The notes under the pieces: model-generated
What the model saw: only the letters and a program-made list of their open reading frames with translations
The model's database searches: none
Told to the model about the DNA's origin: nothing
Program-made: the position numbers and the translations under genes
Assembly (NCBI GenBank): GCA_037447655.1
Contig: JBBHKE010000830.1
Span: forward strand, 1-41,921
Direction of reading: 5' to 3'
Source: Zygnema cylindricum
Lineage: Eukaryota > Streptophyta > Zygnematophyceae > Zygnematales > Zygnemataceae
Length of the DNA stretch: 41,921 nucleotides
Part shown: positions 121 through 38,183 of the stretch, one piece after another
Position numbering within the stretch: position 1 is the first letter of the stretch
Layout of the letters: every line of letters begins with the position of its first letter

Positions 121-545
121 TTAGGATGAAAGGATGTGAAAACAAAGAAAAGTCTGGAAAACTGTAATATTTTTGATACATGGAAAATATATATTATACA
201 ACTTTTTAATATAGATCTCAAAGATACTAGTTTTAAATGGAATTGTATCGACAGTTTTACTGAAAAAGCCTTTTTCCTGACATACCTTACAGATTTAACT
301 CATTACTTCACATTATTGAACTAAATCGTAAGCTTTCTTTCTAAATTTCTAACAAATAAAAAAATAAAAGTCCAATTACAATTACAAGTTACAATTTCCT
401 TTTTTTATCCGTTTACTCAGGCCGTCAGAAATGGACAGAACACAAACACAAATCTAAAATTATACACAAACATTTTCTTTGTGATTTATTAATGTCAGCA
501 TTTAAAATAAAAAAATTAACGCAACTAGGTTACATTTGTAAAAAA
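121..545. other. AT-rich intron sequence, nothing recognised
   Basis: I looked on the minus strand for the next importin exon (expected to follow SAIKP with a YLEES-type segment) and did not find it, so this is read as intron. A weak echo of the exon-12 edge repeat (ACACAAA...TTTTCTTTG) may extend to about 440-482. Confidence 0.5.
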
Positions 546-735
546 AAACTTACCGTTTTACTGCAACTTTTGTATATAGAATTAAAAATAAAAACACAAA
601 TACTTTTATCTTTGTCAAAAATATCTTTGCGGTACTATCGCAGCTTTTGTGCACAGAATCAAAAATATAAACACAAATACTTTATCTTTGTAAGAAATTA
701 ACTTACGGTTTTATCGCAGATTTTGTATACAAAGC
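546..735 (-). repeat. Tandem copies of the exon 12 donor edge
   Basis: The last 24 or so coding bases of exon 12 plus its donor (700-735) recur at about 625-661 and 546-584, each with the same downstream A-rich intron stretch (ACACAAATACTTTTATC), period about 75-80. The middle copy has GC in place of GT at the donor position. The far copy keeps a perfect GTAAGTT donor and would encode YTKVAVK in place of YTKSAIK. Confidence 0.8.
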
Positions 736-954
736 ATAACATCCAAGAGCTTGAGTCGCCGCGGCTTTCTCGTCCAAAACTCCGGTTCTCACGCTTACAT
801 TTCTAAACCTTTTTTCGTCTTCATCTTCTTCTTCGTCAGACGAAACTCCTCCGTCTTCTCCCGTCTTTTCGTCATCCGAGTCTCCAAAATCCACCACAGT
901 TCCATCGTCCATGTCACAACTCGATATCGCAAGAGGGACCACTCGAGGCAAAAA
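707..954 (-). CDS. IMB4: Importin-4 exon 12 (residues 593-675), last exon in window
   Basis: Acceptor CTCCCTCCAG/TTTTTGCC at 955, donor AAACC/GTAAGTT at 706. It encodes FLPRVVPLAISSCDMDDG, an acidic loop (DSDDE, SSDEEEDEDE), then NVSVRTGVLDEKAAATQALG and a final YTKSAIKP. The (CT)n microsatellite just upstream acts as the polypyrimidine tract. Both ends of this exon are repeated in the flanking introns. Confidence 0.94.
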
Positions 955-3900
955 CTGGAGGGAGAAAGAGAGAGAGGGAGAGGGAGGGAGAGAGAGAAAG
1001 GGGGAGAGAGGGAGGGAGAGGGAGGGAGAGGGTGGGAGAGAGAGGAAGGAGTGAGAAGGCGGAGGAGAAAAGCAAAAACATAATCCACCACAGTCCCATC
1101 GTCCATGTCACAACTCGATATCGCAAGGGGGACCACACGAGGCAAAATCTTGAGGGAGAGGGAGAGAGCAGGAAGGGGGGAGGGAGAGGGAAGGAGAGGG
1201 TAGAGGAGGCAGTGGAGGAGGAGGAGAAGGAGAAGAACAGAAAAAATTTCAAGCAAAAAACTGAAGTAAAATCCACTACTGTTCCATCATCAATATCACA
1301 TCAGATACGATATTTGATCAAAAGATTCCAAAAAAAAATGTCAAATTCTTACCTGAACAAAATCTCCCTCCAATAATTGGCTCATTTGTCCAAAGAATCC
1401 ATGACTGTACTCTCTGAGCTCACTGTGATCCAATGTGAAACCCTAAAACAAAAACATCAATTTGCACAACAATTAAAAAAACAAAATCAATTCAATACAC
1501 CGAGCTTGGTTCAGTTCAGTTCAGTTCTGTTCAGTTCTGTTCGTTTCGGTTTCAATTTGGCTCGGTTCCGTTCCATTCAGTTCGGTTCTGTTCTGTTCTG
1601 TTCTGTTCTGTTCTGTTTTTCATTTCATTCCATTTTAATTGAGATTTATTCAACTAACTTCGGTAAGTAATTTACACAATTCAATCCACTCGAGTAATTA
1701 AATTCAATTCACTTGAATGTATCATTCAGATTCCTTTCAAGCTTTAAGCTTATCAGGCCACAATCTCATGCCTCTTGTGAAACCACAAGCAAAACCATCA
1801 ATGTTGTTATATTTCATCAGCAAAAACATATGCATATATATAGACATAAGCAATTGCACCAAGCAAAATTAGCAAACAAAAGAAAAAAACATCAAAACAA
1901 ACAAAACATAAAGAACGGAGGACAACATTGGAAAACAACAAGGAGAAGACAAGAACATATTAATATAGAGGGAGAATAAACTGACTTGAATTGCTGCCTC
2001 AATAAATTGCGGTAAGTGTTGCTCAACTCCTTCTCGTCCACACGCTAAACCCACAATTCCCACTAATTCTAAAGCCTGTAAAAAAAAACAAATAAAAGAA
2101 AACAAAAAACAATTAGAACAACATTAACCAAACGTCCCCTCACCATTTTAGTATATTCTTCCTTCCTTCGTCTTCCTTTCTTTCACTTTTATATTTAACA
2201 CTTGCTAATAATTTGCTTCATCAAACAATAGAAGAAAAAGAAACTACAAATTTGTTCCATTTTGTTGCAATCGTTACAATCGTTAAAAATTTGTTAAACA
2301 TGTTGCCTGGATGCTCACACAGATTTCAGCCATAATACTAAAGATATGTTGGAAAACAAAAGACGAACCTTTGCTCGTACAGAGAGGTCCTCGTCTTTCT
2401 GAGACTCCATCACCGGTTTCATAAGTGTGAGTAATCCCTCCGCATAAGGCAAAAAGTCCTTCTCTGCAGCAGCCGCTACCGATCCAATCGCAGACTGCAA
2501 GACCCTAATTAGCGCGGATTAGCTTTTACTGGAAAACCATATTTAGTGTGGATAAGTTCATCAATCGCAAACTACAAAACCCTAAAGAGCGTGGATCAGT
2601 TGTTCGACTGGAAAACCATATTTAGAGTGGTTAAGTTCATCAATCACAGACTGCAAAACCCTAAAAAGCGTGGATCAGTCGATTGCAACGGAAAACCAGA
2701 TTTAGTGTGGACAACTTCATCGCAAAGGTCCTAAGCAGTGTGGAATGATCGATCGTACTACACATACGCCTTAAAAATAGTTCGCCTTTTAATACTCCAA
2801 AGAACCAGGTCTCTTAGGATTCACAAAGGTATTTAGAGGGTGCTGGGCTTCTTAAAGTTTTAGGGCTGTTTTAAGGTTTTTTTAGGGTTATGCAGGGATT
2901 TCACGGTTGTTTATAGTTTTGTAGGTCCCGGGGTTTTAAAACCTCTCTACAGAAAAAGTTAAGTCAATTACCAGAGAGATTTCTTGCAGATCTCTCCTAC
3001 TGCTTTGGAGAGATTTGAGCAACATTTTCATCAGTGGTTCCATGTATGGTAAAATTTCCGTTCCGAGATTTTCACAAAAAGCCGCCAACGCATAACATGC
3101 TTTTTCCTGCAAAAAAAAAAATCAAACAACAATCCAGAAATTGTGATATTTGCATTGGATTTTTTGAATTCTTGTCACATTCTCCAGCTGTCCAAAATTT
3201 GATGTCGCCTGATCTGGTTGAACATATTATGCCAGCTGTCCTGAAGCAAAACAAAAAACACCTTTAACTTCTTGAGCTTCATCTTTTGTTTAGTCAAGCA
3301 ATACAACTAAATTAAGGACCAACTTTTCCAGTTTGTTTCCAGATCTATTTTTAGTTTTCATAATGAATTGACTCTTACCTGTACGACAGTGGAATTGTCA
3401 TCGAGTACCGCAAAAATTGCAGGTAACACTTGTTCAAAATGTTCGGCCATATCTGGTTGAACATATTCGGCCAGCTGTCCTAAAGCAAAACAAGAAGCTC
3501 CTCTAACTTCTTGGGATCCATCTTTTGTCACGGGAAGAATGAGACTCAATACATCTTTTAGATTTTTTCGTACAAGTTCCCTGCATAAAAATCACCAAAT
3601 TTCCTCAGAAGAAAAAAACGGTTTTTCACGCTAATATTCACGTTATATTGCGTGTTATTACCAGGGTAACTATTACAGTTGATGTTAGGGTAGCTACTAG
3701 GGTTATTGTTAGAGTTACTTTAAGTGTTACTATTAGGGTAACAATCAGGGTTACTATTGAGGTGACTATTAAGGTTACTTTTACTTTTTATTAGAATTGC
3801 TAATAGGGTAACTACAAGGGTAACCAGAAGTGTTACTATTAGTGTAACTATTAGGGCAACTGCTATGGTAACTATTAGAATTACTATTAGGGTTATTAGA

Positions 3901-6655
3901 ACTTAGAGATGCGTATCGCATCACGTCAGTACACCGTGTATGGCTATTAATGTTAATAGTTTTTTCGCCACTTAAAACATCTTTTCTTCGTAACACTTTG
4001 TCTGATTTTCACATGGAGACCGCCAATTGGAAGATGAGAATCTTCGCTTTCAATTGCAACCGTCAGATCCATAATCCGACAATCGTGTACGGAGAAAAGA
4101 TGTTTGAAATGGCAGAAAAAACATTAACACCAATAGCGATACACGGTGTACCTGATTAATCAGATTCCTGGTGCGGGAAAAGATAAGTATCTGTTGGTCT
4201 CTGATGCGATGTGACGATACTATATGTTTAACCGATTACAAACCTACCACCTTTTGATCTGTAAAAAGGTAATTTGCTCGTCGCCAACCCAGGTGGTTTG
4301 AGTCTCCAACTTTCTTTTACTTTTAAGTGCAAGTGTTGTAATCATTTCGGACAAAAAATGAATGTTTAAGCCCCGCAATAAAATTAGAGAGCGAGAGAGA
4401 GGGAAGGAGAGAGAGAGAGGGAGGGAGGGAGAGAGAGAGAAAGGGAGGGAGAGAGAGCGAGAGATAATGTTGCATCGCTGTACCATAAAATCGGAATACC
4501 GGATATATCGGTTCAATGCTGTAACGAATCGCAACAGCAAATTGGTATCGGCACATTTGGCAAAAAAAAAATACAACAGTTTCAGTTTCTTTTTTTTTAT
4601 TTTTTTCTTTTGTGTTGTATTTATTAGTGTTGTGTATCGGTAGCCATTCGCCGATAACCGATATGTACCTTTTTTTGGCGTACCGATAAAAAATATATTG
4701 GTTCGATATATCAATAACGGAATTATCGTGATAAAAAACCGACAAAACACAATAAATTACCGATAAATATCAGGCCCGATAACTATTGGCAATAATTGTA
4801 CGGTTCAGACCGTACAATTGTACTGTTTTTGTACGGACGCCATGACGTGGCATGCCACACTATCTAATGTGTAAAATATAATACAATAAAGCATAAAGTA
4901 CTATGATGTAGTATACTAAATTTTTTACCCTTGTCGGCGATAAAAAAATTGTTGGTTTGGGTGCTATATATCGGGACCCCTCACCGTTCGAAAACCGATA
5001 ATTATCGTTATCGGTTTTATCGCGATAAGTTTTTTCCCGATACACAACACTAGTATTTATCCAGCAGACATAAATATATATAAATAAAAATAAAAATAAT
5101 TTGCATCGGCACATTGAGTATCGGATAATCTGATACAATACGCATTAGTATTAGTAATGTCTGTATTAATGTTTAACAACAATAAATAAAATTAAACAGG
5201 CTGTCATCAAGAAAAAGAATAAGCTCAATGTGAAATTTTGAAACATAGAAAGCGTTGAGAAAGGGAATATTCAAAACCAGAATCAAAAATTCAATTAATG
5301 AAAAAGAAAATAATCACACGCATTACGAAAGTTGGTATGAAAAAAACACAGCTCCGCTCTCCATCTCCCTCTCCCCCTCCCCCTTCCGCTCACCTCCCCC
5401 TCCACCTCACCCTCCCCCTCCCCACTTCTTCCACCTCCCCCTCCCCCTCTCCCTCCCACTCACTTGCATCCCTCGGTAGTCGCCGCCAACGCCATCAAAG
5501 AAGCTTCTCTCTGTTTCGAATTTTGACTCGCGATATTTTCTCGAGAAAACGCAATAATTGGGAGAAAAATATGTTTTTTGGGAAGTCCCATAGCCATGGC
5601 ATCGATAACTTGCGCCACAAATTTTGAAACGGAAAGGTCTTCCATGGAACTATTGTCGTTTACAACGGATTGGGAGGATAAAAGAGGACAGAGAATGTTT
5701 AAAATGGGAGGAACAAGTTTTTGTTTCACGAGAGCTTTCGGTTTCCATCTCGCCATCCATGCAATCAGTTCAACTGCCTGGAAAAAATGAATCGATTTTG
5801 TACAAAAGACAAAAGTTAAAGAAGAAAGTTAAGTTTATAAGTGATAGATGTTGTCATAAGACATAAGTTTTGTGATAAAGTTTATCATAAGATTGCCATA
5901 AGTGGAATAAGTTCCGCATACGTTTTGTCGTAAATTTTGTTATAGGTTCTGTCATAAGTTTTGACAATGCTCTTATAAATTTTGTCAAAAAAAATTGCCA
6001 CAAATGTTGTCATGAAGTTTTGTCATACGTGTTGTCATACGTCTTACCATAAGTTTTTTCAGTATCCATACACATAGGATTTGTTATCCATGCTATTTAC
6101 CAGATACAGCATCCTTGAATTTTCTGGAATATTTTATTTTCTAGGCTTTTTAAGGGTATTTTCATATTTTTCAGGTTCTGTTGTATGAATAGTATCAATG
6201 GAACTTGTCAAATACAATATGGATGAAATATTATCATAAATTCTCGCTCTCACCATCTCCCTCCCTCTCACCCCCACATTTTTGAATCCCGATCGATGTG
6301 AAATGGTAAGAAACAAAGAAATAAAAAACGAAGAAAGCGGAAACAAAGAAAATAAATAAAAAAAACAAAAAGAAATACCTGGTGACGAGTAGTAAGTTCC
6401 AACGACTCATTTGCTGTGAGCTCTAAGGAAAATTGAACAATGGAGGCCAATGTTGATCCCATTGCAGCCGAAGGAAGCTCCATAAACTCATCCAGGATCT
6501 CACAAGCTTTTACAGCCACTGATTCGTCTCCAATGGAGATACAGTATCGAGCAACGTCTAACATTGGACCAATCAACTCCCGAAACATGGCCTATTCACA
6601 AAGTTTAATCACCATACAGACGGAGAGAGAGAGTGAGTGAGAGAGAGAGAGTGAA

Positions 6656-6686
<31 letters not shown>

Positions 6687-6710
6687 AAAAGAAAGAACGA
6701 AAGAGAGGGA

Positions 6711-6775
<65 letters not shown>

Positions 6776-6821
6776 AGAGAGATTGAGGCTTACCACTTCT
6801 TGCTCTGACTCTATATACTCC

Positions 6822-6862
<41 letters not shown>

Positions 6863-9800
6863 AGAGAGATTGAGGCTTACCACTTCTTGCTCTGACTCTA
6901 TATACTCCAAAAGTGCACCTACAGCTCTGCATTTAAAAAGCATATAAAAAAAAATTAGAAAAAGTCCCAAAAAAAAAGGGCGGAAGGAAAAAAAAATTCG
7001 GTAGGAGATACTAGAAATTCCCACAAACCAGCAAATTCATAAAAAAGAACAAAATTCCAAAAAAAAATCATAAACTAACACGTTCATCTAAAAAGTATCT
7101 GAGAGGATTTGAGATTGTGAAATTATCCTATTAACCACAAACGCGGGAGAGGGAGAGGGAGAGGAAGAGGGAGAGGGAGAGGGAGAGGGAGAGGGAGAGG
7201 GGGAGGGGGAGGCAGGGAGAGAGGGAGAGGGAGAGGCAGGGAGAAAGGGAGAGACAAGGAGAGGGGGGGGGGGGGGAGAGGGGAGAGGGAGATGGGGAGG
7301 AAGGAGAGGGAGAGGGAGAGGAGAGAGAGAAGGAGAAAGAAAGAGAAAGAGGAAGGCAGAGGGATTGAGAAATGGAGAGGGAGAGGATTGCGAGAAAAGG
7401 GGAAGAAGAGGGAAAAGGAGAAGGAGAGGGGAAAGGAGAAGGAGAAATGTCGAGAAGGGATGGGGGAAGTAGAGGAAGAAAAGGCTCACTTCAGAGCTGC
7501 AATTCGCACTTTATTGCTGTGCTCGTCCCGTAAACCGCTCACAAATACCGAATGTAGAGTTGAAAAATGTGGTCGAAGAATATCTCCGATAGTTTCTGTC
7601 AGTGAACTGAACAAAATGAGGGCCACCTGCACTGAACCAGGCACGCAGGCATTTAGGGTTTTTTAGAGCTTTCTAGTTTTTTTTCAATTTAAAAAAAAAA
7701 CGGGTTTGACAACGGATTTAAAAACTGGTTTTCTTTACGGGTTTTTTTTACGAGTTTTTCTAGGTTTTAGAGCGGTTTTATATTTGGCGAGGTTTTGAAT
7801 TTGGCGAAGGTTTATATCACAAAAGCTGAATAAACGTAATTGTATGTGTAAGCTGAAAAACCCGTGTAAGTTGAAAAAAAGGGGGACATTAAAAACTAGA
7901 AAAACAAAAAGAGTTGCAAAGAATCAAGCCTAAAACAGAAAAATAATATTGTATATCTGTACATATATATATACAAATAATGAGCTCTAGAAAGTTTAAA
8001 GAAGTTTAAAAAACTTTGAAGGAGCTAAAAATCTTTTAAATGTTTATAATATGAAAGCTAAGCGAGAATACCCACTTAGAAATTTATAAATGTAGCGACA
8101 AATGCTCGTTACAGAAAAAAATGTTCTCATGGGTCCGGCAATAAAACAAAAACAATAAAAATAAGGAAAACAGAGAGGCTAGAATTCAGCTAAGTGAAGG
8201 TAATATGTTTTACATTCACTAGGGTAACAACTACAAATTTTCACCCAAAAAAACAAACAGGCAAACAAAAAGGAACCTTCGTGAAGACCAAGGTCAGCCC
8301 TATGTCAAAACCACTTACTGCACCTCAGTAAACAGAAAAAAAGGGGAAGGGGGGGAGGAGGGCAGAGGTACATCATATATCGCAATTAATAATATGCAAG
8401 TGTGCAAATGAGTTTAAAGGCCGAAAAAACTCTATTAATACTAATAGCGATACATGGTGTAGTCAGAAAAGATGGGACAGGGGGAGAGAGAAAGTGAGAA
8501 AGTGAGTGAGGAGAGAGAGAAAGAGAATAACAGACCAAGACAGTGAGAATGAGAGAGATATTAAGATACAGAGAGAGAGCGGCATTGTACCTCACGATGC
8601 TCTTCTTGAGGGCTTTGACTACATTGTAAAAGAAACTGAAGTAAAGCCGGCCACTCGCCATTTGGCACCGTGTGTTTGGCGATCACACTCACCACATCGG
8701 CAGAAGCTCGGCGGACCAAAGCACTGAAAACTCCCAAAGAAATAAACTTTAAAAAACTAAACTTCATTAAAGAACTATACTTTGTAAAAAAATAGACTTC
8801 AATAAAAACTAGATGTCATTAAAAGCTTCAAACATACATAAGTTTAACTAATACAGAACTAATACGGCAGAAATAACACTATAAATTTTTTCTTGCGTTT
8901 AGAAATAATTAGTATGAGAACTGTTTTATAATAACACTACTTCTGGTCAGAAAGCCGTGGATGAACTGCCTAAAGAATTAGCGCTGTAAATAATAATAAA
9001 AAGTATTGTTAACACCGCCTTATGTTTGGAGAGCAACAAAAACCATGGACTGAATAAGTGTTGGGAACGGTAACAGGGATTCACGGTGTATTTGAACTCA
9101 AAATTCCCAGATAACTTAGAACTGCAAATCGCACAAAAATTGGCTTCATGAAAAACCCTTAGACATACATAAGTTGGTGACCTTTTACATCATTTCAACA
9201 AGTTGCAACTCGCGCACAACTTAAATTATATGAATTCCTAACTAACAAAGACCTAGTTGAGCTCCAACATAACTTGAACTTGTTGTAACTCTTATATAAC
9301 ATAAACTTGTTAAATTCTTAAATAAACTAAACCTAGTGAACTCTTACATACGAAAGTGTTACTTAGACCTAGTTGAACAACTACATGACTCCAACCTCTT
9401 TGGCGAACTAGAGTAACAATTTTCACCAAGCAAGTTGCATAAGCTCAAAAAGAGTTTTTTTACGAAACCAAAAAGTACACAGTGAAACGCTATTAACGTT
9501 GAGAAATATGTAGTGTGAAGGGTCATTAATTATAATATAGGTCAGAGCAATGTGGCATTTCAACTGCTTCCTAAATTAGCGTTAAGAGAAAAAAGAGTTA
9601 ATATATAAACACTATTTTATGTTCAAGGGCAAAAATAAACCGGCACCGATTTGTGTTATTAATGCTAATAGCGATTCACTGAGTAGCTAAAACCAGTAAA
9701 TTTAGTGAATTCAAACTGAAAACGGGAGAAACAGGAATCGCATTATTCTTTGGAAACAATAGAAAGTTGCAAATTCGGGTGAATTGGAAGTTAAACTACA

Positions 9801-11146
9801 CCGCCCATCGCTGTTAGAGTTAGTGAATAATTAGTGTTAATACTTTTTTTTTAAATGACTACACCAAATTATGTCTTGTTGTATGGCTCATTATGGGCCG
9901 CCACACTCAATGGTGTTATCAACACTGAATGATTTTGAACCTCAAAAACATTCGCTCGAGTTAGAGTGGTCAACTCTAATTCCAGGTAATGTTTTTTTGA
10001 CCCGAAATCATATATTTTGTTAATAACACTATTTAAACTAATTATCCCCCAATAATCCACGTTGGCAAACATTTAGTGTAGTTAATTCTAATGAAGTGTC
10101 AACGTAAATAATTCACTAAGGCTTATACAAATTTTGGTGCAGTTAGTTTTAATAATGGGTCCATACTCTACTCTAATTTAAAATTTAAAATAGAATTAAT
10201 AATTCTATTTAAGAATTTGGGCAAAAATTTGGGGGCACCGAATTAGCGTTATTGACGCTAATAGCGATTCGCGGTGTACTGTAATACATAATTTAGTGAA
10301 GTGAATTCTAATAAAAAGCTAACGATAACAATGACCTAACGCTAATAACAATGGGCGGTTTACTTTTCATGGATTAAATGGTTCATGAAGCTAAAAAAAA
10401 TAAAAAATAAAAATGATGCCTACCGAGTCCTACCTTAGTTCCAATGGAGCTAAAAGGGATCAAATAGAAAAAAAATAAAACTAAAACACTTTTCATAATC
10501 TCCTCCACTATCTCAAGGCAAGTAGAAATTATGTCCAACATTATCGGTATTGTAAAAAAATTATAAAAATTCACACTAATAGGCATGTCAACCTAAAAGT
10601 TGAACGATGTTTATTTTATTTTAATCCAATTCAATGGAAAAATTTAACTGGAGATGGACGCACCAAAAATCACACAATAGTGGGCATGTCAAAACTGAAA
10701 ATTGACCCATTCGGTTTTACTTAACACCTTAATCGTCGTATTTTAAACACTTCAAAAAACGTATTTTTACTCAACCCTGTCAAAAAAAATTGTATAATCA
10801 TGTAAGCAAGAATGAAAAGTGGCTTAAACACATAAGCTAAACACGTGTCTACAAACCTTTGTTCAACGGCCACCGATTCCAAAAGAGATGACTTGAGGCT
10901 CTCCTGAATTTCCGGAGATAACTTCATCCAATGGCCAGAAATTTTTTTTCGGAGAATCACCGCTGCCAGCTGGCGCGAACCTAAGGAAGACGAATTTCGA
11001 ACCAAATGCAAGAGGGCGGGAACGATGGAAGGATCTCTTGCCAGCTGTCGAATGACTCCCTCGGCTTGTTTGCGAGTCGCATTGTCCGGCATCAAAAAGA
11101 GAGAGAGAAGACTCTCTAACTGCTGCATGTTGGAATTGAGGTCCAT
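707..11146 (-). CDS. IMB4: Importin-4-like karyopherin beta (partial, exons 1-12)
   Basis: HEAT-repeat nuclear import receptor. Importin-4 proteins bind cargo such as histones and ribosomal proteins in the cytoplasm and release it in the nucleus on RanGTP binding (family knowledge). I joined twelve exons: 11146-10857, 8723-8591, 7626-7490, 6926-6881, 6591-6379, 5777-5464, 3580-3379, 3106-2972, 2494-2369, 2075-1986, 1442-1353, 954-707. All introns are GT-AG, and each junction keeps the frame (cumulative 290, 423, 560, 606, 819, 1133, 1335, 1470, 1596, 1686, 1776, 2024 nt). The order and spacing of recognisable motifs match plant importin-4: MPDNATRKQAE and RQLAAVILRKKI at the N-terminus, ASADVVSVIAKH, REASLMALA, RGASCFALGQLAE, YALAAFCEN, SAIGSVAAAAE, an acidic loop at about residues 614-640, then SVRTGVLDEKAAATQALG. 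About 674 of roughly 1,050 residues are present. The last donor at 706/705 splits a codon (CC/T), so the 3' exons lie beyond the left edge. Confidence 0.95.
889..1313 (-). repeat. Triplicated 5' part of importin exon 12 with GA tracts
   Basis: The first about 65 bases of exon 12 (889-954) recur at 1083-1148 with only a few changes and, more decayed, at about 1270-1313. Spacing is about 194 and 188 bp. The two complete units each include a GA-rich tract, so the duplicated unit appears to be exon part plus microsatellite. Copy 2 still reads ILPRVVPLAISSCDMDDG and has an AAG acceptor behind a long pyrimidine tract. Confidence 0.9.
958..1052. repeat. (GA)n/(GGGA)n tract in importin intron 11
   Basis: Purine tract on plus strand, so pyrimidines in the importin transcript, directly upstream of the exon 12 acceptor. 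A sister tract is at 1151-1240. Confidence 0.9.
1353..1442 (-). CDS. IMB4: Importin-4 exon 11 (residues 563-592)
   Basis: Acceptor TTTTGTTTTAG/GGTTTCAC, donor GTTCAG/GTAAGAA. Encodes GFTLDHSELREYSHGFFG and QMSQLLEGDFVQ. SELREYSHGFF is a strong family match. Confidence 0.94.
1509..1616. repeat. (TTCAG/TTCTG)n pentanucleotide repeat in intron 10
   Basis: About twenty imperfect 5-bp units: TTCAG units first, degenerate TTCGG/TTTCG in the middle, then near-perfect TTCTG. Confidence 0.9.
1986..2075 (-). CDS. IMB4: Importin-4 exon 10 (residues 533-562)
   Basis: Acceptor TTTTTTTACAG/GCTTTAG, donor ATTCAA/GTCAGTT. Encodes ALELVGIVGLACGREGVE and QHLPQFIEAAIQ, 30 codons in phase 0. Confidence 0.94.
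2369..2494 (-). CDS. IMB4: Importin-4 exon 9 (residues 491-532)
   Basis: Acceptor GTCTTGCAG/TCTGCG, donor GCAAAG/GTTCGTC. Encodes SAIGSVAAAAEKDFLPYAEG, then LMKPVMESQKDEDLSVRAK. The acceptor end of this exon is repeated three to four times in the upstream intron (2486-2755). Confidence 0.94.
2486..2755 (-). repeat. Tandem copies of the exon 9 acceptor edge in intron 8
   Basis: The exon 9 start plus its acceptor (AATCGCAGACTGCAAGACCC on plus) recurs at 2563 and 2642, period about 78 bp, with a fainter fourth unit near 2700-2755. Each unit also carries GGAAAACCATATTTAGTGTGG or close to it. Copies 2 and 3 keep a pyrimidine-AG context on the minus strand (TTTTGTAG, TTTTGCAG). Confidence 0.85.
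2820..2945. other. Degenerate TTTTAGGG-like stretch in intron 8
   Basis: Scattered TTTTAGGG/TTTAGAGGG/TTTTTTAGGG words resembling the plant telomere unit, but not in a regular array. Most likely ordinary intron sequence. Confidence 0.4.
2972..3106 (-). CDS. IMB4: Importin-4 exon 8 (residues 446-490)
   Basis: Acceptor with a poly-T tract, TTTTTGCAG/GAAAAAG; donor CTCTG/GTAATTG. Encodes EKACYALAAFCENLG, then EILPYMEPLMKMLLKSL and RRDLQEISL. It is phase 0 at both ends and matches the CENMGEEIVPLL segment of the family. Confidence 0.93.
3188..3292 (-). pseudogene. Decayed copy of part of importin exon 7 inside intron 7
   Basis: Aligns over about 100 bp with exon 7 positions 3428-3530. On the minus strand it reads EVKGVFCFASGQLA, stop, YVQPD where the real exon has EVRGASCFALGQLAEYVQPD. 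The copy has an in-frame stop and no splice sites, so it is a dead exon fragment about 240 bp downstream of its source. Confidence 0.9.
3379..3580 (-). CDS. IMB4: Importin-4 exon 7 (residues 378-445)
   Basis: Acceptor TTTTTATGCAG/GGAACTT, donor GTACAG/GTAAGAG. Encodes KELVRKNLKDVLSLILPV, then EVRGASCFALGQLAEYVQP and HFEQVLPAIFAVLDDNST. A decayed copy of the middle of this exon lies in the next intron (3188-3292). Confidence 0.95.
3640..3905. repeat. Degenerate minisatellite in intron 6
   Basis: About 12-bp units of the type GGGTTACTATTA, on plus, with many substitutions. Confidence 0.85.
3930..4150. mobile_element. TA-flanked MITE, group A, in importin intron 6
   Basis: Left end TACACCGTGTATGGCTATTA and right end TAATAGCGATACACGGTGTA type (here CCAATAGCGATACACGGTGTA) are inverted repeats with TA at each edge. 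The interior contains CCGTCAGAT and GTGTACGGAGAAAA blocks shared with elements at 11909, 22848 and 33390. About 221 bp, no coding capacity. Confidence 0.88.
4388..4465. repeat. (GA)n microsatellite in importin intron 6
   Basis: GAGAGAGGGA-type purine run on plus strand. Confidence 0.9.
4625..5052. mobile_element. MITE with CGATAA-rich interior, group D
   Basis: Ends TAGTGTTGTGTATCGG and CCGATACACAACACTA are perfect inverted repeats. The interior is full of CGATAA/TTATCG words and carries GTGGCATGCCACAC. A longer relative (28945-29836) has the same ends. TA at both edges could be part of the repeat or a target duplication. Confidence 0.88.
5345..5462. repeat. (CCCTCT)n tract next to exon 6 donor
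   Basis: Pyrimidine-rich on plus, so the importin transcript is purine-rich immediately after the exon 6 donor. This is the opposite polarity from the other GA tracts in this gene. Confidence 0.9.
5464..5777 (-). CDS. IMB4: Importin-4 exon 6 (residues 274-378)
   Basis: Acceptor TTTTTTCCAG/GCAGTTG, donor TGCAA/GTGAGTGGG. Reads AVELIAWMARWKPKAL through VIDAMAMGLPKKHIFLPII to REASLMALAATTEGC. The donor runs directly into a purine-rich tract (transcript strand GGGAGGGAGAGGGG). Confidence 0.95.
5840..6060. repeat. Degenerate CATAAGTTTTGT repeat in intron 5
   Basis: Irregular 11-13 bp units of TTTTGTCATAAG type. No coding or transposon signature. Confidence 0.75.
6379..6591 (-). CDS. IMB4: Importin-4 exon 5 (residues 203-273)
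   Basis: Acceptor GTGAATAG/GCCATG, donor CACCAG/GTATTTC, 71 codons in phase 0. Begins AMFRELIGPMLDVARYC and ends LELTTRHQ. The region corresponds to the DVSRKCI...IVQFSLEV part of plant importin-4. Confidence 0.95.
6615..6860. repeat. Long (GA)n with embedded exon 4 copy
   Basis: Two (GA)n tracts (about 6618-6773 and 6826-6860) in intron 4, separated by a 53-bp sequence at 6774-6826 that is identical to 6861-6913. That sequence contains the last 33 bases of exon 4 and its donor. The offset between copies is 87 bp. Confidence 0.95.
6881..6926 (-). CDS. IMB4: Importin-4 exon 4 (46-nt micro-exon, residues 187-202)
   Basis: Acceptor AAATGCAG at 6934-6927, donor GTG/GTAAGCC at 6880. Encodes (K)AVGALLEYIESEQEV. 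The acceptor side is ordinary. The donor side runs straight into a duplicated copy of the exon's 3' part (6774-6826) and long (CT)n on the transcript strand. Confidence 0.92.
7142..7480. repeat. (GAGGGA)n tract in importin intron 3
   Basis: About 340 bp of imperfect GAGGGA units with a G14 run near 7264-7277. It abuts the exon 3 donor. Pyrimidine-rich in the transcript. Confidence 0.9.
7490..7626 (-). CDS. IMB4: Importin-4 exon 3 (residues 142-187)
   Basis: Acceptor GTGCAG/GTGGCC. Reads VALILFSSLTETIGDILRP, then HFSTLHSVFVSGLRDEHSN and KVRIAALK, a clear HEAT-type segment of importin-4. It ends AA/GTGAGCC, splitting a lysine codon. It is too short and interrupted to show as a long open frame. 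Confidence 0.93.
7640..8590. other. Importin intron 2
   Basis: AT-rich intron with scattered GGGTTT words. A short (GA)-rich stretch lies at about 8479-8580. No transposon ends, RNA gene or coding similarity recognised. Confidence 0.6.
8591..8723 (-). CDS. IMB4: Importin-4 exon 2 (residues 97-141)
   Basis: Acceptor TTTTCAG at 8730-8724. The exon encodes ALVRRASADVVSVIAKH, then PNGEWPALLQFLLQCSQS and PQEEHRE. It ends GAG/GTACAATG in phase 0. The first codon is completed with the AG of exon 1. Confidence 0.95.
8724..9475. other. Importin intron 1, 3' part
   Basis: AT-rich. Degenerate repeats of AACTTTAAA/ACTTCATTAAA type lie near 8745-8830, and AACTTGTTGTAACTC/AACCTAGTTGAAC type units near 9170-9400. 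Nothing coding. Confidence 0.6.
9476..9685. mobile_element. TA-flanked MITE in importin intron 1
   Basis: Left end TACACAGTGAAACGCTATTA and right end TAATAGCGATTCACTGAGTA are imperfect inverted repeats of the CACCG...CGCTATTAG group. About 210 bp, decayed. Confidence 0.75.
9797..10362. mobile_element. TA-flanked MITE(s), probably composite, in importin intron 1
   Basis: Left end TACACCGCCCATCGCTGTTA at 9797. Two candidate right ends: CGCTAATAGCGATTCGCGGTGTA ending at 10278 (last 20 bases matter) and a decayed CTAATAACAATGGGCGGTTTA ending at 10362. The second fits the CCCATCG of the left end better, so an inner element end may be nested at 10240-10278. Confidence 0.7.
10363..10856. other. Importin intron 1, 5' part
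   Basis: AT-rich intron. Two similar stretches containing GGGCATGTCAA or AGGCATGTCAACC (10580, 10681) hint at an old duplication of about 100 bp. No gene seen. Confidence 0.5.
10857..11146 (-). CDS. IMB4: Importin-4 exon 1 (residues 1-97)
   Basis: Starts at the ATG at 11146 (MDLNSNMQQLESLLSLFL) and holds the importin-beta N-terminal region: MPDNATRKQAE, RDPSIVPALL, RQLAAVILRKKISGHW. It ends AAAG/GTTTGTAG after two bases of a codon. The start is chosen because the family begins at this point and no in-frame upstream coding similarity is visible. Confidence 0.95.
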
Positions 11147-11908
11147 ATTTTCAAGAGGGGGAACTAATATGGTGTATGGTATATGGTGGAGAGGGAGAGG
11201 GAGTGGGAGAGGGAAAGGGAGAGGGAGAGAGGGAGAGGGAGAGGGAGGAGGAGGAGAGGGAGAGGCGGTGTATATGGTTTATGGTATTTGAACCCTGCGA
11301 AGGAAAAGAAAGGGCAGGAAAACTGAACAAGGTTAGGTTAAGCTCCCTCTCCCTCTCCCTCTTCCTCTCCCTCTCCCTTTTCCTCACCCTCTCCCTCTTC
11401 CTCTCCCTCTCCCTTTCTCTGTCTTTCTGCCTCTCTTTCAATGCATTTTTGCAAAAGGAAACCGAACCCTAAAAGTGTATTCGTACAAAGATTGTTTGAA
11501 AAGCACTTACCAGAAGAACAAAAAGAACAATCTCAGAAAAAAAATGTCATCGGAACAAATGCCACAGCGACTAAACTAAGAAATTTTGTTGCGCCTTCTG
11601 TTCAGAAAAGTGCAGTCTGGACTGGGTACAGGGTTCAGAATAATTTTTCGACAAAGGTCGCCGTACTTCGCCCTTAAGAGGTTGTTCCGTGTTGGAATCG
11701 GTTTTTATATCAAAGTATGCAATGGAATTTCTGTCTTTGAGGATTTCCATGTTTCTTGGGTCTAAGAAAATTCGTACATGGGACAGAGAGGCATTGCCCA
11801 ATCATTGTGGTCGCTCAGAATTTTTTTGAAATTCGTACGACGCTTAAAATTATGTGCAATCTTGTCTGCCATACATATGTATTGAAAATGCTTTGCGATA
11901 CGCACTTG
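11147..11908. promoter_or_regulatory. Importin-4 5' flank and leader
   Basis: Sequence upstream of the importin ATG on the minus strand. It holds a purine tract (11185-11270) and a pyrimidine tract (11341-11430) that can pair with each other, flanked by TATGGTGTATGGTATATGG-like repeats at about 11168-11188 and 11268-11290. No clear TATA box could be assigned. The regulatory role is inferred from position only. Confidence 0.5.
11185..11430. repeat. GA tract facing CT tract (inverted pair)
   Basis: GAGGGA-type purines at 11185-11270 and CCCTCT-type pyrimidines at 11341-11430 form a long imperfect inverted repeat about 70 bp apart, just upstream of the importin start codon. Confidence 0.85.
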
Positions 11909-12129
11909 TACACCGTCGATCGTATTTAGCGTGTATGTTTTTTTTTGTCTCTTAAAACATATTTTCTCCGTACATACATGTCGGATTGTGGATCTGACGG
12001 TTGCGATTGAAAGGTTTTATTCTCAGCTTACGAATGGCGGTCTTAAATTGAAAATTGGACACGTGTACGGAGATAAGTTGTTTTCAGTGGCGAAAAAAAC
12101 AATACACGCTAAATACGATCGACGGTGTA
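11909..12129. mobile_element. TA-flanked MITE, group A, between the two genes
   Basis: Perfect long inverted ends: CACCGTCGATCGTATTTAGC on the left and its complement at 12105-12127, with TA on each side. The interior shares ATCTGACGGTTGCGA and GTGTACGGAGA blocks with other group A elements. A G-box-like CACGTG lies at 12060-12065. 221 bp. Confidence 0.93.
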
Positions 12130-12145
12130 CTGTACCATATTTGAT

Positions 12146-12376
12146 ACAATTACAAAAATCTAGACGTCTACAACTGTCGCTATTTTTGTTGGCGTCACGA
12201 TTGTCGAAAGTTTCGTAGTCGTCTTCATCCGTCACAAAGTTGTCCCTACGTCTACAACCGTCACATGTCAAAGTTCCGATTTCATTTTCGCACATTGGGA
12301 CGCTCTTCAAAGTGGTACGGAGAATCTCACTACAGTCCAAAATACTTTGTCAAAGTACCGATTACATGAGGACATA
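12146..12376. repeat. Dispersed repeat G, copy 1
   Basis: About 230 bp closely similar to 32180-32410, in the same orientation (shared words include AAAATCTAGACGTCTACA, GGGACGCTCTTCAAAGT, CAGTCCAAAATACTTTG). I cannot see inverted ends, so the class is unknown. Confidence 0.88.
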
Positions 12377-12394
12377 CCTTCAAAGAGGAATTTT

Positions 12395-12484
12395 AGTATT
12401 TTGATTTTCCATCGCAACCGTCGGATTAATAAACCTACAAGTGTGCACGGAGAAACACTAAACGCTTAGAACGATACACGTGTA
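12395..12484. mobile_element. Right-end remnant of a group A MITE at the RBM34 promoter
   Basis: CATCGCAACCGTCGGATTAA, GTGTGCACGGAGAAA and a final CGATACACGTGTA match the right half of group A elements. It ends about 88 bp before the RBM34 start codon and includes a second CACGTG (12477-12482). Confidence 0.75.
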
Positions 12485-12572
12485 CCAGTTCCAGACTACA
12501 GTACAGTACACACTTTCAAATTTGGCAGTGTTTGCAATTTTCCAAAACCCTAACAAAAAGCTTGGGAGAACC

Positions 12573-12917
12573 ATGGAGAAGCTTATCGAACTCCATAAGC
12601 TGCAAAATGCCACTGCTCTAAGGGAGAGTGGTGGAAGACGGAGGAAAAGAAAGAGAGAGTTTGAGGAAGATGAAGAAGATGATGACATTGGAAAGAGAAA
12701 AACGTCAGGAGGTAAAGAAGGAGGTGGTGTTTTGGAGGAGGCAAAGAAGAAAAAGAAGAAGAGTGAAGTGACACCAGAAGAAGAGGCTGATAAAGCCAAA
12801 AGAACTATTTTTATTGGAAATCTGCCTATAGACGTTAAGAAAAAAACAATTTCTAGAGAATTGGCAAAATACGGTGAAGTGGAATCGGTGAGGATTCGCT
12901 CCGTACCTCTTGCTGAG
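12573..12917 (+). CDS. RBM34: RBM34 exon 1 (residues 1-115)
   Basis: MEKLIELHKLQNATALRE start, low-complexity charged region, then KRTIFIGNLPIDVKKKTI and KYGEVESVRIRSVPLAE. Donor GAG/GTAAGC, followed by a T16 run. Confidence 0.93.
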
Positions 12918-15900
12918 GTAAGCATACGTTTTTTTTTTTTTTTTGATAGGAAGAACTTTGGAGAAAGAATAATTTCGTCAAACAGATAATCTCCGCTTGA
13001 ATACTGGGAGAAATTATATTGATTTGTAACATTTTAAGCTTGAATATTTGTCACACAATTTCTTAGAATGTAAACATGAGTAAATGTACATGTTTATTTC
13101 AGTAAAAATGAGAAAGAAGCTTTTTTTGAAGCTTGTTTTACCCTCGTAAAATTTGTGAAATGCAAGGATTTTGAAGGATAGGAAGGTTCAGTACTTTCCA
13201 GTTTCAATGTCCGTTTTTCCGTCAGTTTCACATGCTTTCCATGCTTTTTTCTTTTTTCTTTTTTTTTGCTTTCTCAAACACGTGTAATTTGTTCATTAAC
13301 CTTTCCAAACACTGATTCGGTTTTAAAATTTGGTGTTATGGCGATAGCTGTTGTTCTAAACAAGCTATTTGTAGCTTGCTCCCATTTTTTTTGTAGGCTG
13401 TTTACTAAATTGCTGTGGATGAAAAGCCAAAGTGCAAATGTTTTCTATTTTTCCTTTAGTCGTTTGTGGACCCATATTCACATTTGCCCTCTTTTGATAT
13501 GCGACAAACTTGAAGCTCTAAAATTTGATAATAATTCATATATGGCATATGATAATAAATATTGTGTTGTGAAAAGAGTGCGCATTCATTTTGTAGGAAA
13601 GAGAAATGTTCAGAGAAATATTAGGGTTCAGTTTCAGGTTTGGCTTCCTTGGTGATGTGATTCAATATATTCTAACTCTGGCTCAGCTCATATCTCTTAT
13701 TTATTATTTTCTTAACCATAGACTCGGAAATGACCCGCGTCATACATATGCGTACTTTAACTTCACTTTCAATCCGTCAAATCTTATTAGTAAATTTTTA
13801 TGAACAATCTAATTGCTTCCAAGTCTTTTCAGCAATTTAATGGTGTCAGTAATTCTGCAAAAGGCAAAGGGAAAGCCTTCCCAAGTTTATTGAATAACTG
13901 TGAATAATTGTTTTTTTTTGTCAACCCAGACAAAAATGCCGAGGAAAGCGGCAGTTATTACTGGTCAACTCAGTGATGTTCGCCAAAGGTATTTATGATT
14001 TTCGTTTTAATCTATGGCTATATTTGCAAAAAGGTATCAAAACAATACATGTATCATACCTGTAATTAGTCTAAACATGTCTATAATGTGGGGTTACCAA
14101 ATATCTTGTTTCCATACCTCCGCATTTTTTTAACTCCTGGTGGACTGTTGACGATTGTCATTATAGCAACATGTTCTGTCGATCAACATTTTTGGGGTTT
14201 TACTTTCACCGACTCTCCATATGTATACGATGTGATTCCTTCATTGTATAGAATGAATTCACTCAACAAGTGTGATATCTTTATTCAAAGCTTTTTTATA
14301 GTTTATTGTGCTGTAGTTTTAAACATGGAGGTCTATGGTGTCCATGGTTTTTTGACTGTAACATAACGTCTATGGTGTTCATGGTTTTTTGACTGTAACA
14401 TAACTTTAACGGTTAAGTGTTTACATGAGTTCAGTGTCACTTTTTAGCTTTTGAATTTTCATATGCAAATGCAGTTTCTGAAGCAAGTTGATGAAAATCT
14501 ACCACCATAATTACCACGTATTCGGACGTCATATAAGTCGGCCCTAAAAAGTACAAAATAATTCTCTGAAAAACGTTCAATGTTTCAAAGTTTTCAGAGG
14601 GGTGACAAAAAGAAAATGTTGATGTATATAAAAAAAGGCTAAAACCTTCATAGGATCAAGTTTTTTCAACCACATCATGTCAGATATTTCCATGTTAAGT
14701 ATGGTAGCATGAGATTTTTTGTTCAAGATATGGATACGGTAGACACATATTTCATAAGTAGATATTTTGTAGTGTGTGATCTTCAAGCAGTAGAAAATCA
14801 AAACACCCAGTGTTTCCATCTTGCGTTTGAAACCTACATCGCTCATCGATATTAGTGTTAATAACACTAATTTTGCCACAGCTTTTTTTGGCCCAAAGTT
14901 ATAGATTAGTGTTGTTAACATTAAAATAGAATTAACGCTTATATGGAAAGTTTTCATATAGTGTTCACCACTTTATATTATGTTCGTAAAAATTAAGCCT
15001 GATGTACGACAAGTCTGTTTTCGTGCAGAACGTCCATGTGACATCTCATTTCTACATCGTTAAGTGCGTTTCGCATGTAATTAACTTTGAATACCTGTTA
15101 GCCGCCAAAAAAGCGGGAATATTACTGAATGTACGCAAAATGACGCTATTAACATTAAATTAGCATTTACTTTAATTTTTTTAACACTAATAACGATGAG
15201 TGGTGTACTTTGAACCAAAGTTTCGGCTGATTACCTGGCTCTTATCATTGTTCTAATCTGCGAAAACACATGGAAATGCTATATTTTACCCGGTACTATG
15301 TTTGCATTCTAACGGGGTAACCACAAATAGTGTTTCCATACGTTCTTGAATATTAAACTCTGGTTCTTTTCTGGGTAGAATTACCGTTTGATTAGATTAT
15401 TGATACCAGCCTTATGACTTTAAATTCGTTGTCAAGCAGCTCAAAATTATTTCTGATTCCTTTTGTTTGCAGTTGTAATGCTTATTTGGTGTTTAAGACG
15501 GAGGAATCAGCTATAGCTGCTTTAGAGAGCAACGCAAAAGAAGTAAGTGACAGAAGTCTCCCTTAAAAACCTTAAAATTCCTATATGGGTTCGTCGGGTT
15601 GTGTCTGCCGATTGTGAACTTCCTTCTTTAAATGGGGACTCTTTTAGGAATTTGACTATTATGTTTAGAGTTCAATTGGCCTTTGAATTTTGAATGTGAC
15701 GGTTGTCCAATTAATTAGCAGGCATGTGATAATTTGGTATCATTTTTTTGTTGTTTTCTTAAAAAAAAAATGTCTCTTATATGGACAAGAGACCTTAATT
15801 GGTCAATGTGTGTCAGCATACACCACTGCATCTTTGTTATGTTGAGATTATCATTCCATATAAAAATGCTTTTTCCAATCATCTCAGAATTTGAGGTTTG

Positions 15901-18900
15901 TATTATGGGTTGGACACTAACAGATGCTTCCTGTTTCAACTCTTTATTCAGACAAAATTGCCCGGAAATTATATTTTTCTCGAAGTTGTTCTTCTCTTTT
16001 GCACATGCAGTAATACTTACCGTAGGTCATTGGAATTACATCGTTTCATCGCCGTTAAGAGTACAAAACATTTCTTTGGTCAAGCAGTTTTTTACCAAAA
16101 ATGCTGAAAGTGGTTTTGATAACACCGATAAAGGAGCAAACAACATGCTATCACAAGTTTTATTGATTCTGACAATAATGTTGGTATTACTACTTAGAAT
16201 CAATAATAAATTTGATTATTCCATTGCTCTTCAAGGGATGGACCACACTGATTACGCATTACATGGAATTTGCATTTATTATTCAAAGTTTTCTGTATAG
16301 GAGAAGAATTACATTGTAAGTCACTTTTAAACGTAGTTGTTTGTTTTTGCAGTTTCTAGGGCGGCATCTTCGTGTGGATCGTGTTTCCGTTCAAACTAAA
16401 AATGGAGTTAAAGGTACAACTGGGAGTTCAGAGGTTGAGTACGATCGCATGCGTTCTGTATTTGTTGGAAACCTTCCATTTGATGTTGAGGTGAGTAAAG
16501 AGATTAGATGTATTTTCTATTTTTTTATTATTTTCCTGGCATTTGACAGTTATTTTACTGTTTTAATATGGTTTGATGGTCATATATGGGTAGAGGAATG
16601 AGGTTGGGAGAGGGAGGGGTGGATGTTCAGGCTTAGTAAGACAGAAATTTTGTGATATCGAGGAGGAAAGAATAGCATTTGTTTAACATCTTTAAAAGAT
16701 TTCATTTCACCTCAAGTTTCTAAATGTAGGGATGATAAAAACAATTTTTTGCCGGCTCTTTTTTTTAGAAGTGAAAGCCAATGTTCCCATATCATTTCCG
16801 AAAATTAGGATTTGTGTTTACATGTATCTATTTCACAGATTTCTGGGGTTTAATCGTTAAAGTTTGGCTTGAATCAGTTTACTCGTAGGCTCACATTATT
16901 GGAATTAACCTACATTTCATAAGTTGTTAAACAGGTTTATGAGTAATTATATGTACAATTACTCTCAGAACTGTACGAAAGTGTGTAATTATTCCATAAT
17001 TGTAAGAAAGTGTATAGTGGTTCTTGAAACTGTACAAAATGTGAGTAAACCTATTAGGATTCATAGTCATCTTTTTTTCAGGTCTTTCTATGTCCTTCTT
17101 GCCTCTCAATCTGAACACTTACTCTTGTTAGTTTTAAAGGGCAGGAAAAGAAGTCATGTTCTACATTCTTAATTTAAAAATTTCCGTGTAAAATTTAAAT
17201 CAAGCTATTAATTTTCAAATTACAAAAACGTCCGAAATGGCCACATATTTTTCCTCACCTGAGACGTTTGATACTTTAGGCTCATCTCTACTTTTTGTGG
17301 GTCCACACTAATTATGGTTGGATGACATAGTTTTGGATGAATTATTAAGAAAGTAGGAATTATGGTCGTTGTTGTTATTTTGGGGACAGGAAGAAGATTT
17401 GCATAAATTATTTGGAGGAGAGGAAGCTCCTGAGGAGATGAAGGGGTCAGTTGAGGCTGTGAGGGTAGTTCGCGATCGCCACTCTAATTTGGGTCGTGGG
17501 ATTGCTTTCGTCCTCTTTAAAACAAAGGTGAGATCATCTGATTTTCTTGCCTTTGAATGCACATTTATACCACATCGAAAGCACGTTTAAAGACATTTTC
17601 AAAGTTATTTAGAAGACATTTTTTTTGGGGTCATGGGATTGCTTCTTCTCTTTCAAAACAAAGGTGTGAAAATTTGAATTTCTTGCCTTTGAGAGCACAT
17701 TGTTATCACATCTAAAGCACATTTTAGAAGATTTTTAGAAGTCATTGAGTAAAAAAATATTGGAAGGCCATTTTGATTTAGGTCGGGGGTGGCTTTTGTT
17801 CTCTTTCAAATACTTCCCTCTCTTTTCTTAAAACACATCTGTTTTGGTGTAAGAACATTTCAATTTGGTCTATGAGACTACAATTATCCTTTTGAAAACA
17901 ATGGTAAGAACAAGATTTTCTCCCCCTTTTTATGAAAAAGAAATACATTTGCTTTGTGTAAGAACAGTTCAATTTTTTCTTTTGGGACTGTTTTTGTGCT
18001 TTTTGAAACAAAGGTGCAAACTTTCGAGTTAATAATTCGAGTTAATAAGCTTGTAACAGATACGGTTTAGGAGAAACTGTTCCTAAGTTCAATTATAAAG
18101 AAAAATGAACTTTCACTTTCTTTTACTTTACGTTCACTTTTTCTTTTACTTTTACTTTTACTCTTACGTTTACTTTTACCTTTATGAACTTCCACTTCTA
18201 CTTTTGTTTACCTTTGTCCTTTTTTTAACTTTATGAGCATTTACTTTTATTTTTTACTTTTATGCAAATTCTACTTTTTTTTGTGTGGAACAGAATAGTG
18301 AAGAACTGTGAATGTACAGTTTTATCACAGAACTTGTTATAATAGTAATCTACACTAAATCAAACCGAATTTTTGTTATTGTTAATAACAATACTAATAA
18401 TAATCATATTAATAATCATAATAATAATAGTTATTAATGTTATTGCATTTGCTACAAATTTTGCTGGAAGAAAGGAGGTATTTTTTTATTCTTACTTATA
18501 AAAATCAATACTGGAAATTTTGAGGTGGGAACAGAAAGCTGCAAAAAGTGTTTTGGAGACAAAAGACATAAAACTCCAAAAAAGGGTTTTGAGAATTTCA
18601 AGACCTTTAGCAAATTCAAAAAATAGTGGATCAAACACTGTTGACAAAACCTACAAAAAAGGGAATGAGACGAGCGACATAAAGGAAGGATTCGAGAGGA
18701 GGAAGGAGGAGGAGGAAGGAAAAGGTAAGACGGAAGGAGAGAGTGAGGGGAAGAAGAGAAAAAGAGAGTCATGGGAAGGTCTTAGATCCCAGAAAACGGA
18801 TGGAAAGATTGGGAAAAAAATTGGGAAGTCGATGAAACAACTTGGAGGTTTAGATGGGTCTTTTGGGGGAGAAAGTGGGGATAGAGGGAGAGGGAGAGGG

Positions 18901-25690: not shown

Positions 25691-25895
25691 TATGCAAAAT
25701 GTCCAATATCCAATGTTCAGTGTCCAATGTCATGAAAATGCCCAATGTCCAATCTCCCATGTCTAATGCACAATCTCCGTCATCAATATCCAATATCCAA
25801 TGTCTAGTTTCCATTGGTCATTGTCACATGTTCCATATCCAATGCCTAATGTATAATGTTCAATGTCCAATGTCTAATGCCGAATGCATAGTAGA
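25691..25895. repeat. Degenerate (TCCAATG)n heptamer array, block 1
   Basis: Units TCCAATG/TCCAATA/TCTAATG with many variants. Because the period is 7, every reverse frame reads the same heptapeptide theme (LDIGHWT). Confidence 0.9.
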
Positions 25896-26252: not shown

Positions 26253-26345
26253 CTCCAATGTTCCATGCCCAATGTTCCATGTCCAATGTCCAGTGTCCAA
26301 TGTCCAATGTCCAATGTCCAGTGTCCAATATCCAATGTCCAACGC
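26253..26345. repeat. (TCCAATG)n heptamer array, block 2
   Basis: More regular copy of the same heptamer, about 360 bp after block 1. The segment between the blocks (25896-26252) shows a repeated ACTCGTACAAAGA(G/A)AGAT unit and no gene. Confidence 0.92.
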
Positions 26346-37883: not shown

Positions 37884-38183
37884 AAAAGTTCAACTAACTA
37901 GCAGCGAGCGGCGGAATTTATGGCGTCTCTAACGGCGACTTTCTTCTGAAGACGGAGCGGAGGACAGATAAAAATACGCGCGCGCAAATGAAGCAAAACG
38001 ACTCAAGGAAGCCGCCGTTGGAGACGCCGTAAATCCCGCTCGGCGAGCGACGGAATTTATGGCGTCTCTAAAAAGTTCAACGAACTAGCGGCGAGCGGCG
38101 GAGTTTACGGCGTCTCCAACGACGGCTTTCTTCTAAAGACGGAGTGGAGGACAGATAAAAATACGCGTGCGCAAATGAAGCAA
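37884..38183. repeat. Direct 112-bp duplication with an inverted middle
   Basis: 37884-37995 and 38071-38183 are near-identical (AAAAGTTCAAC...GACAGATAAAAATACGCG). Between them, GCCGTTGGAGACGCCGTAAA is the inverse of TTTACGGCGTCTCCAACG within the copies. Notably GC-rich (GCGAGCGGCGGA) against the AT-rich flanks. May be a small transposon with GGCGTCTC ends that was tandemly duplicated. Confidence 0.85.

Follow-up and report, generated by a model that had tools for sequence, protein, structure and literature searches.

Copies of exon edges in two neighbouring genes of Zygnema cylindricum probably arose by ordinary local tandem duplication

Tandem duplications that carry splice signals, or that lie inside introns, have been described before. 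Passages of a report on the potato RdRp gene describe a tandem duplication of intron-exon structure, and also one of 83 bp that lies within an intron (PMC4974935). In an excerpted table of a review, the category of tandem genomic duplication comprises 188 events (PMC3443670), and intron-gain cases in Drosophila are attributed to tandem duplication in parts of a further report (PMC2891723). Finally, repair of DNA breaks with protruding ends yields small tandem duplications, according to sections of two reports (PMC8355091, PMC5730883).

We compared these systems with six places in two neighbouring genes of Zygnema cylindricum, where a piece of coding exon is present again in the adjacent intron. 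The window, meaning the whole stretch of DNA that was analysed, comprises 41,921 nucleotides. As in the potato gene, a local tandem duplication carries intron-exon structure together with splice signals, although the passages on potato concern the gain of a new intron and the Zygnema copies sit in existing introns (PMC4974935). The AGGT or proto-splice-site intron gains of Drosophila likewise involve duplicated sequence with splice motifs; in the part of the report consulted these are duplications within coding exons that become introns, whereas here existing splice sites were copied into introns (PMC2891723). New introns via AGGT duplication were considered and rejected, as the gene model requires none at any of the six places. 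The products of break repair, like the Zygnema copies, are direct repeats that measure at least tens of bases and lie beside their source, but the sections consulted demonstrate the mechanism in mouse cells, and here it could only be proposed (PMC8355091, PMC5730883). The kind of event is already in print, and the window is a good new example of it. The preliminary description had suggested that repeated duplication of splice junctions is a habit of this genome; our literature search, with most subscription journals outside its coverage, found no paper on such a habit.

Exon boundaries were defined from GT-AG sites and the reading frame. The importin-4 gene lies on the minus strand with 12 exons within the window, and continues beyond base 1. 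Its neighbour on the plus strand points the opposite way and encodes an RRM protein, a candidate RBM34 (the name used in the preliminary description). The starts of the two genes lie head to head, approximately 1.4 kb apart (11146-12573), and this interval contains GA and CT tracts detected by TRF. In Pfam searches, importin-4 exon 1 matched IBN_N and the RBM34 candidate protein matched RRM domains. The importin-4 protein itself matched land-plant importin-4. Among the best 120 of 413 hits, the top identity was 60% (Riccia, Diphasiastrum), Calypogeia and Sphagnum reached 59%, and no near-identical protein was found. These matches place the host among the streptophytes, as an early-diverging plant or a near relative among the algae.

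Next to these gene models we set a self-comparison of the window (offsets 12-700, simple repeats masked, three shuffles as control). At a score of at least 18 there were 43 pairs, compared with 0, 0 and 0 in the shuffles, and at a score of at least 14 there were 74 pairs, compared with 0, 1 and 4. All six places were among the listed pairs. Further, the score of every edge was compared with a background of 604-3592 alternative placements on both strands of the window, and 12 of the 13 intron copies outscored all of them, which rules out chance similarity as the source of these 12. At all six places, self-comparison and gapped alignment revealed direct repeats on the same strand, adjoining their source. 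The duplicated units measured approximately 77-240 bp and crossed an exon edge, and TRF recorded plain tandem arrays at three of the six places. Searches for other sources of the repeats gave no Rfam matches at the gathering score and no tRNAs.

Self-comparison, gapped alignment and background scoring (12 of 13 copies) thus confirm the six duplicated places in two genes that had been proposed from reading the sequence. The copies also differ in age as proposed, since their identity to the exon spans 100% (importin-4 exon 4) down to 68% (RBM34 exon 5), and they do lengthen the introns and leave spare splice sites. It had been stated that each piece is present two to five times in the intron; the copies exist, but these figures include the exon itself, and the introns contain one to four. 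The statement that five of the six places include the splice site is correct, because at least one copy at each of those five places includes the junction; exon 7 is the exception.

Importin-4 exon 12 (707-954, minus strand) is duplicated at both ends. On the acceptor side, the first copy (1079-1230, minus strand) includes the pyrimidine tract, with AAG in place of the exon's CAG. It is 84% identical over 153 columns (94% over 65 columns in the exon part), and no background placement equals its score. The second, shorter copy of the exon start (1268-1307, minus strand; 80% over 41 columns) outscores 1816 background placements; its match is confined to the exon interior and stops short of the junction. 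The offsets in this array are 188-194 bp. On the donor side, the donor GT is lost in one copy (584-655, minus strand; 81% over 72 columns), while a second copy (509-576, minus strand; 77% over 69 columns) retains the donor GTAAGT. TRF detected the donor-side array at 535-731 (77 bp x 2.6 copies), including the copy at 584-655. Exon 9 (2369-2494, minus strand) has two upstream copies of its acceptor side within 2562-2704 on the minus strand, found by alignment and TRF (array 2485-2721, 79 bp x 3.0 copies). Both contain the AG, and they are 83% identical over 63 columns and 78% over 64 columns. A possible fourth exon 9 copy had also been mentioned. We rejected it, since its score of 26 was matched by 4 of 2346 background placements and was no better than background.

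In the RBM34 candidate, exon 5 (17390-17527, plus strand) was modelled from GT-AG sites and frame and has an RRM match. Its donor end is followed by four intron copies found by alignment (17625-18016, plus strand), all of which outscore the background. They are irregularly spaced, at 17625-17749 (80% over 127 columns), 17767-17811 (78% over 45 columns), 17862-17934 (68% over 75 columns) and 17983-18016 (82% over 34 columns), and three of the four retain the GT.

The best single item of the window is a perfect in-frame 87-bp duplication with two identical donors, at the donor end of importin-4 exon 4 (6881-6926, minus strand). The duplication occupies 6738-6913 on the minus strand, with the second donor after 6794; TRF gave an 87-bp unit in 2.0 copies at 100%, and the gapped alignment gave 100% over 74 columns. 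The frame between the donors, which lie 87 bp apart, is open, and use of the distal donor would add 29 codons in frame with no stop. The 29 additional residues (distal form 6794-6926) would be Ser- and Leu-rich owing to the GA tract. The proximal donor yields the importin-4 protein that we compared with the land-plant homologs, and these homologs presumably favour the proximal form over the longer one. As this is the sole duplication fresh enough for inspection of a breakpoint, we note that exonic CCAAAAG is joined to a GA run with approximately two bases shared, and that the GA run blurs the breakpoint. Such a breakpoint would be equally compatible with slippage and with end joining. The complete identity of the two units and the flanking GA runs could point to an assembly artefact, a reading that is plausible for exon 4 only and that we regard as most unlikely; the other five places carry diverged copies, which are not a product of misassembly. 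Provided that the exon 4 duplication is real, it offers a natural test of which of two identical donors, 87 bp from each other, is chosen.

The pair of identical exon 4 donors with an open frame between them might also suggest that selection maintains the copies because they regulate the genes as decoy or alternative splice sites. A GT also persists in three of the four RBM34 copies and, at exon 12, in one of the two donor copies, which points the same way. However, copies have decayed to 68-80% identity and some are without a splice site. Moreover, the offsets of 77, 79 and 194 bp are not multiples of three, and therefore use of these copies would shift the frame. We consider maintenance by selection very unlikely.

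At exon 7 (3379-3580, minus strand) the copy has a different appearance. It lies in intron 7 (3189-3339, minus strand), is 74% identical over 152 columns and scores 130, compared with a background maximum of 34. Its alignment spans 140 of the 202 exon bases and includes neither splice site, and therefore the copy is most readily interpreted as an exon duplication that is old and has decayed. The exon and its copy adjoin within one gene, as in tandem exon duplication, but the copy is partial, and its alignment shows no splice site that can be recognised. A whole-exon tandem duplication with splice sites was thus not what we found, although decay could have erased the remainder.

Six exon-touching families in two genes, with exon 12 hit at both ends, could mean that exon-intron junctions are targets of duplication, for example through breaks that accompany transcription or splicing or that occur at pyrimidine tracts, and that junction copying is a habit of the genome. 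To assess the positions, we rotated the exons as a set within the gene region and applied three cut-offs. Five of 18 exons were hit, compared with 5.49, 4.35 and 3.92 expected (p = 0.695, 0.456 and 0.339, respectively). For junctions, 4 of 33 were hit, compared with 3.55, 2.96 and 2.70 expected (p = 0.487, 0.357 and 0.299, respectively). The exon 12 acceptor junction is absent from these four because its pyrimidine tract was masked; counted by hand it makes 5 of 33, and the p values refer to 4 of 33. Exon 12, matched at both ends, is one entry in the exon counts. RBM34 exon 6, with its start off by one base, was included only in this 18-exon rotation; an earlier rotation and the family-placement test used 17 exons. 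In the gene region, the 17-exon rotation gave p = 0.28-0.66 for exons and p = 0.31-0.52 for junctions. Rotation through the gene region is conservative, because this region contains the exon families themselves. Through the whole window, 5 of 17 exons were hit, compared with 3.49, 2.74 and 2.11 expected (p = 0.27, 0.11 and 0.068, respectively).

Each duplication family was also placed at random, at three cut-offs. Of the 16, 11 and 10 families, six touched an exon each time, compared with 5.53, 4.17 and 3.73 expected (p = 0.488, 0.197 and 0.121, respectively). When placements mostly inside exons were forbidden, the expectations were 4.19, 3.31 and 2.97 (p = 0.215, 0.063 and 0.038, respectively), and four stricter selections gave p = 0.162, 0.078, 0.048 and 0.045. 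The thresholds of the position tests were picked after the data were seen. In a simulation of decay, the rate at which exon copies change was set to 0.2 of the neutral rate; duplications in which one copy is conserved stayed detectable 1.65-1.68 times as long as those in which both are neutral.

The rotation tests within the gene region showed no excess of hits at splice junctions relative to other positions. The excess in family counts (6 seen, 3.0-5.5 expected, p = 0.04-0.49) is weak at best, and the simulated detection bias of approximately 1.65-fold can produce an excess of similar size. What speaks for targeting in these tests is the family excess with p = 0.038-0.215; with no excess in the gene-region rotations, the longer detectability of exon families and thresholds selected post hoc, we consider directed duplication quite unlikely. 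A junction-specific genome habit, as the preliminary description had put it, is not supported, since junctions in the window were hit approximately as often as random positions. It is similarly improbable that exon edges are hot spots of tandem duplication in this lineage, for instance through breaks at transcribed junctions or pyrimidine tracts, and that introns owe part of their growth to copies of their own boundaries. A junction preference of up to approximately two-fold may be compatible with the window data and, if true, would link duplication to transcription or splicing and provide a steady supply of spare splice sites.

Similar duplications were present away from exons. Within the gene region, families that touched no exon made up 10 of 16, 5 of 11 and 4 of 10 at the three cut-offs, and the intergenic part contained 11, 8 and 4 families. 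For comparison, a 37-bp tandem duplication lies off the exons in an RBM34 intron (14331-14413, plus strand; TRF, 97%), and self-comparison revealed a 113-bp direct repeat outside both genes (37884-38183, plus strand; 91%). The latter region also contains a 35-base inverted repeat. Family density per kb was 0.91 in the gene region and 0.46 in the intergenic part, 0.62 and 0.34, and 0.57 and 0.17, respectively. Without the six exon families, subtracted by hand, the gene-region values fall to approximately 0.57, 0.28 and 0.23 per kb, near the intergenic ones; the higher density is thus mostly, though not wholly, due to these six families.

Other repeats were recorded in the window. A diverged array with a 12-base unit, about GTTACTATTAGG, lies in an intron at 3642-3904 (TRF, self-comparison), and outside the genes TRF recorded two arrays, at 25698-25879 and 26254-26342, whose 7-base unit resembles TCCAATG. 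The 20-base motif ACACCGCNAATCGNTATTAG, with at most 3 mismatches, occurs at 23 sites from 4130 to 41815 on both strands, compared with 0.03 expected. Several sites form facing pairs a few hundred bases apart, such as 14836-14855 (plus) and 15187-15206 (minus) within an RBM34 intron, and 38359 (plus) and 38809 (minus). Judging from this arrangement, the motif probably represents the termini of a short dispersed element with inverted repeats. Self-comparison pairs in 9649-10364 overlap matches to a dispersed element and are probably not tandem duplications. The main tests included them; of these pairs, just the one with a 593-bp offset is missing from the family-test rows with dmax 300.

We consider it likely that the copies come from ordinary local tandem duplication, of tens to approximately 240 bp, which affects non-coding DNA generally and in some cases spans an exon-intron edge. 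The copies lie as direct repeats, cover a range of ages and have counterparts off the exons. In the window, their frequency at exon edges barely exceeds what random placement together with detection bias would produce, and the process therefore looks like ordinary mutation. Against it stand the higher family density in the gene region (0.57-0.91 versus 0.17-0.46 per kb), p = 0.038 in one of six main versions of the family test, p = 0.045-0.048 in two of four stricter selections, and a whole-window rotation down to p = 0.068. Under ordinary duplication, local repeats would arise across non-coding DNA, and some would cross an exon-intron edge. These would be tolerated, because one working splice site stays beside the intact coding sequence, and the spare copy would turn into intron. 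The intron copies would decay afterwards, and some arrays would duplicate anew. The mutational source may be repair of staggered breaks or template slippage, perhaps aided by the GA tracts at exons 4 and 12; in plants, small tandem duplications from break repair have reportedly been studied by Schiml and by Vaughn and Bennetzen.

In summary, the window clearly illustrates how introns come to contain spare splice sites and decayed exon fragments through ordinary tandem duplication, and such remnants can mislead gene prediction.
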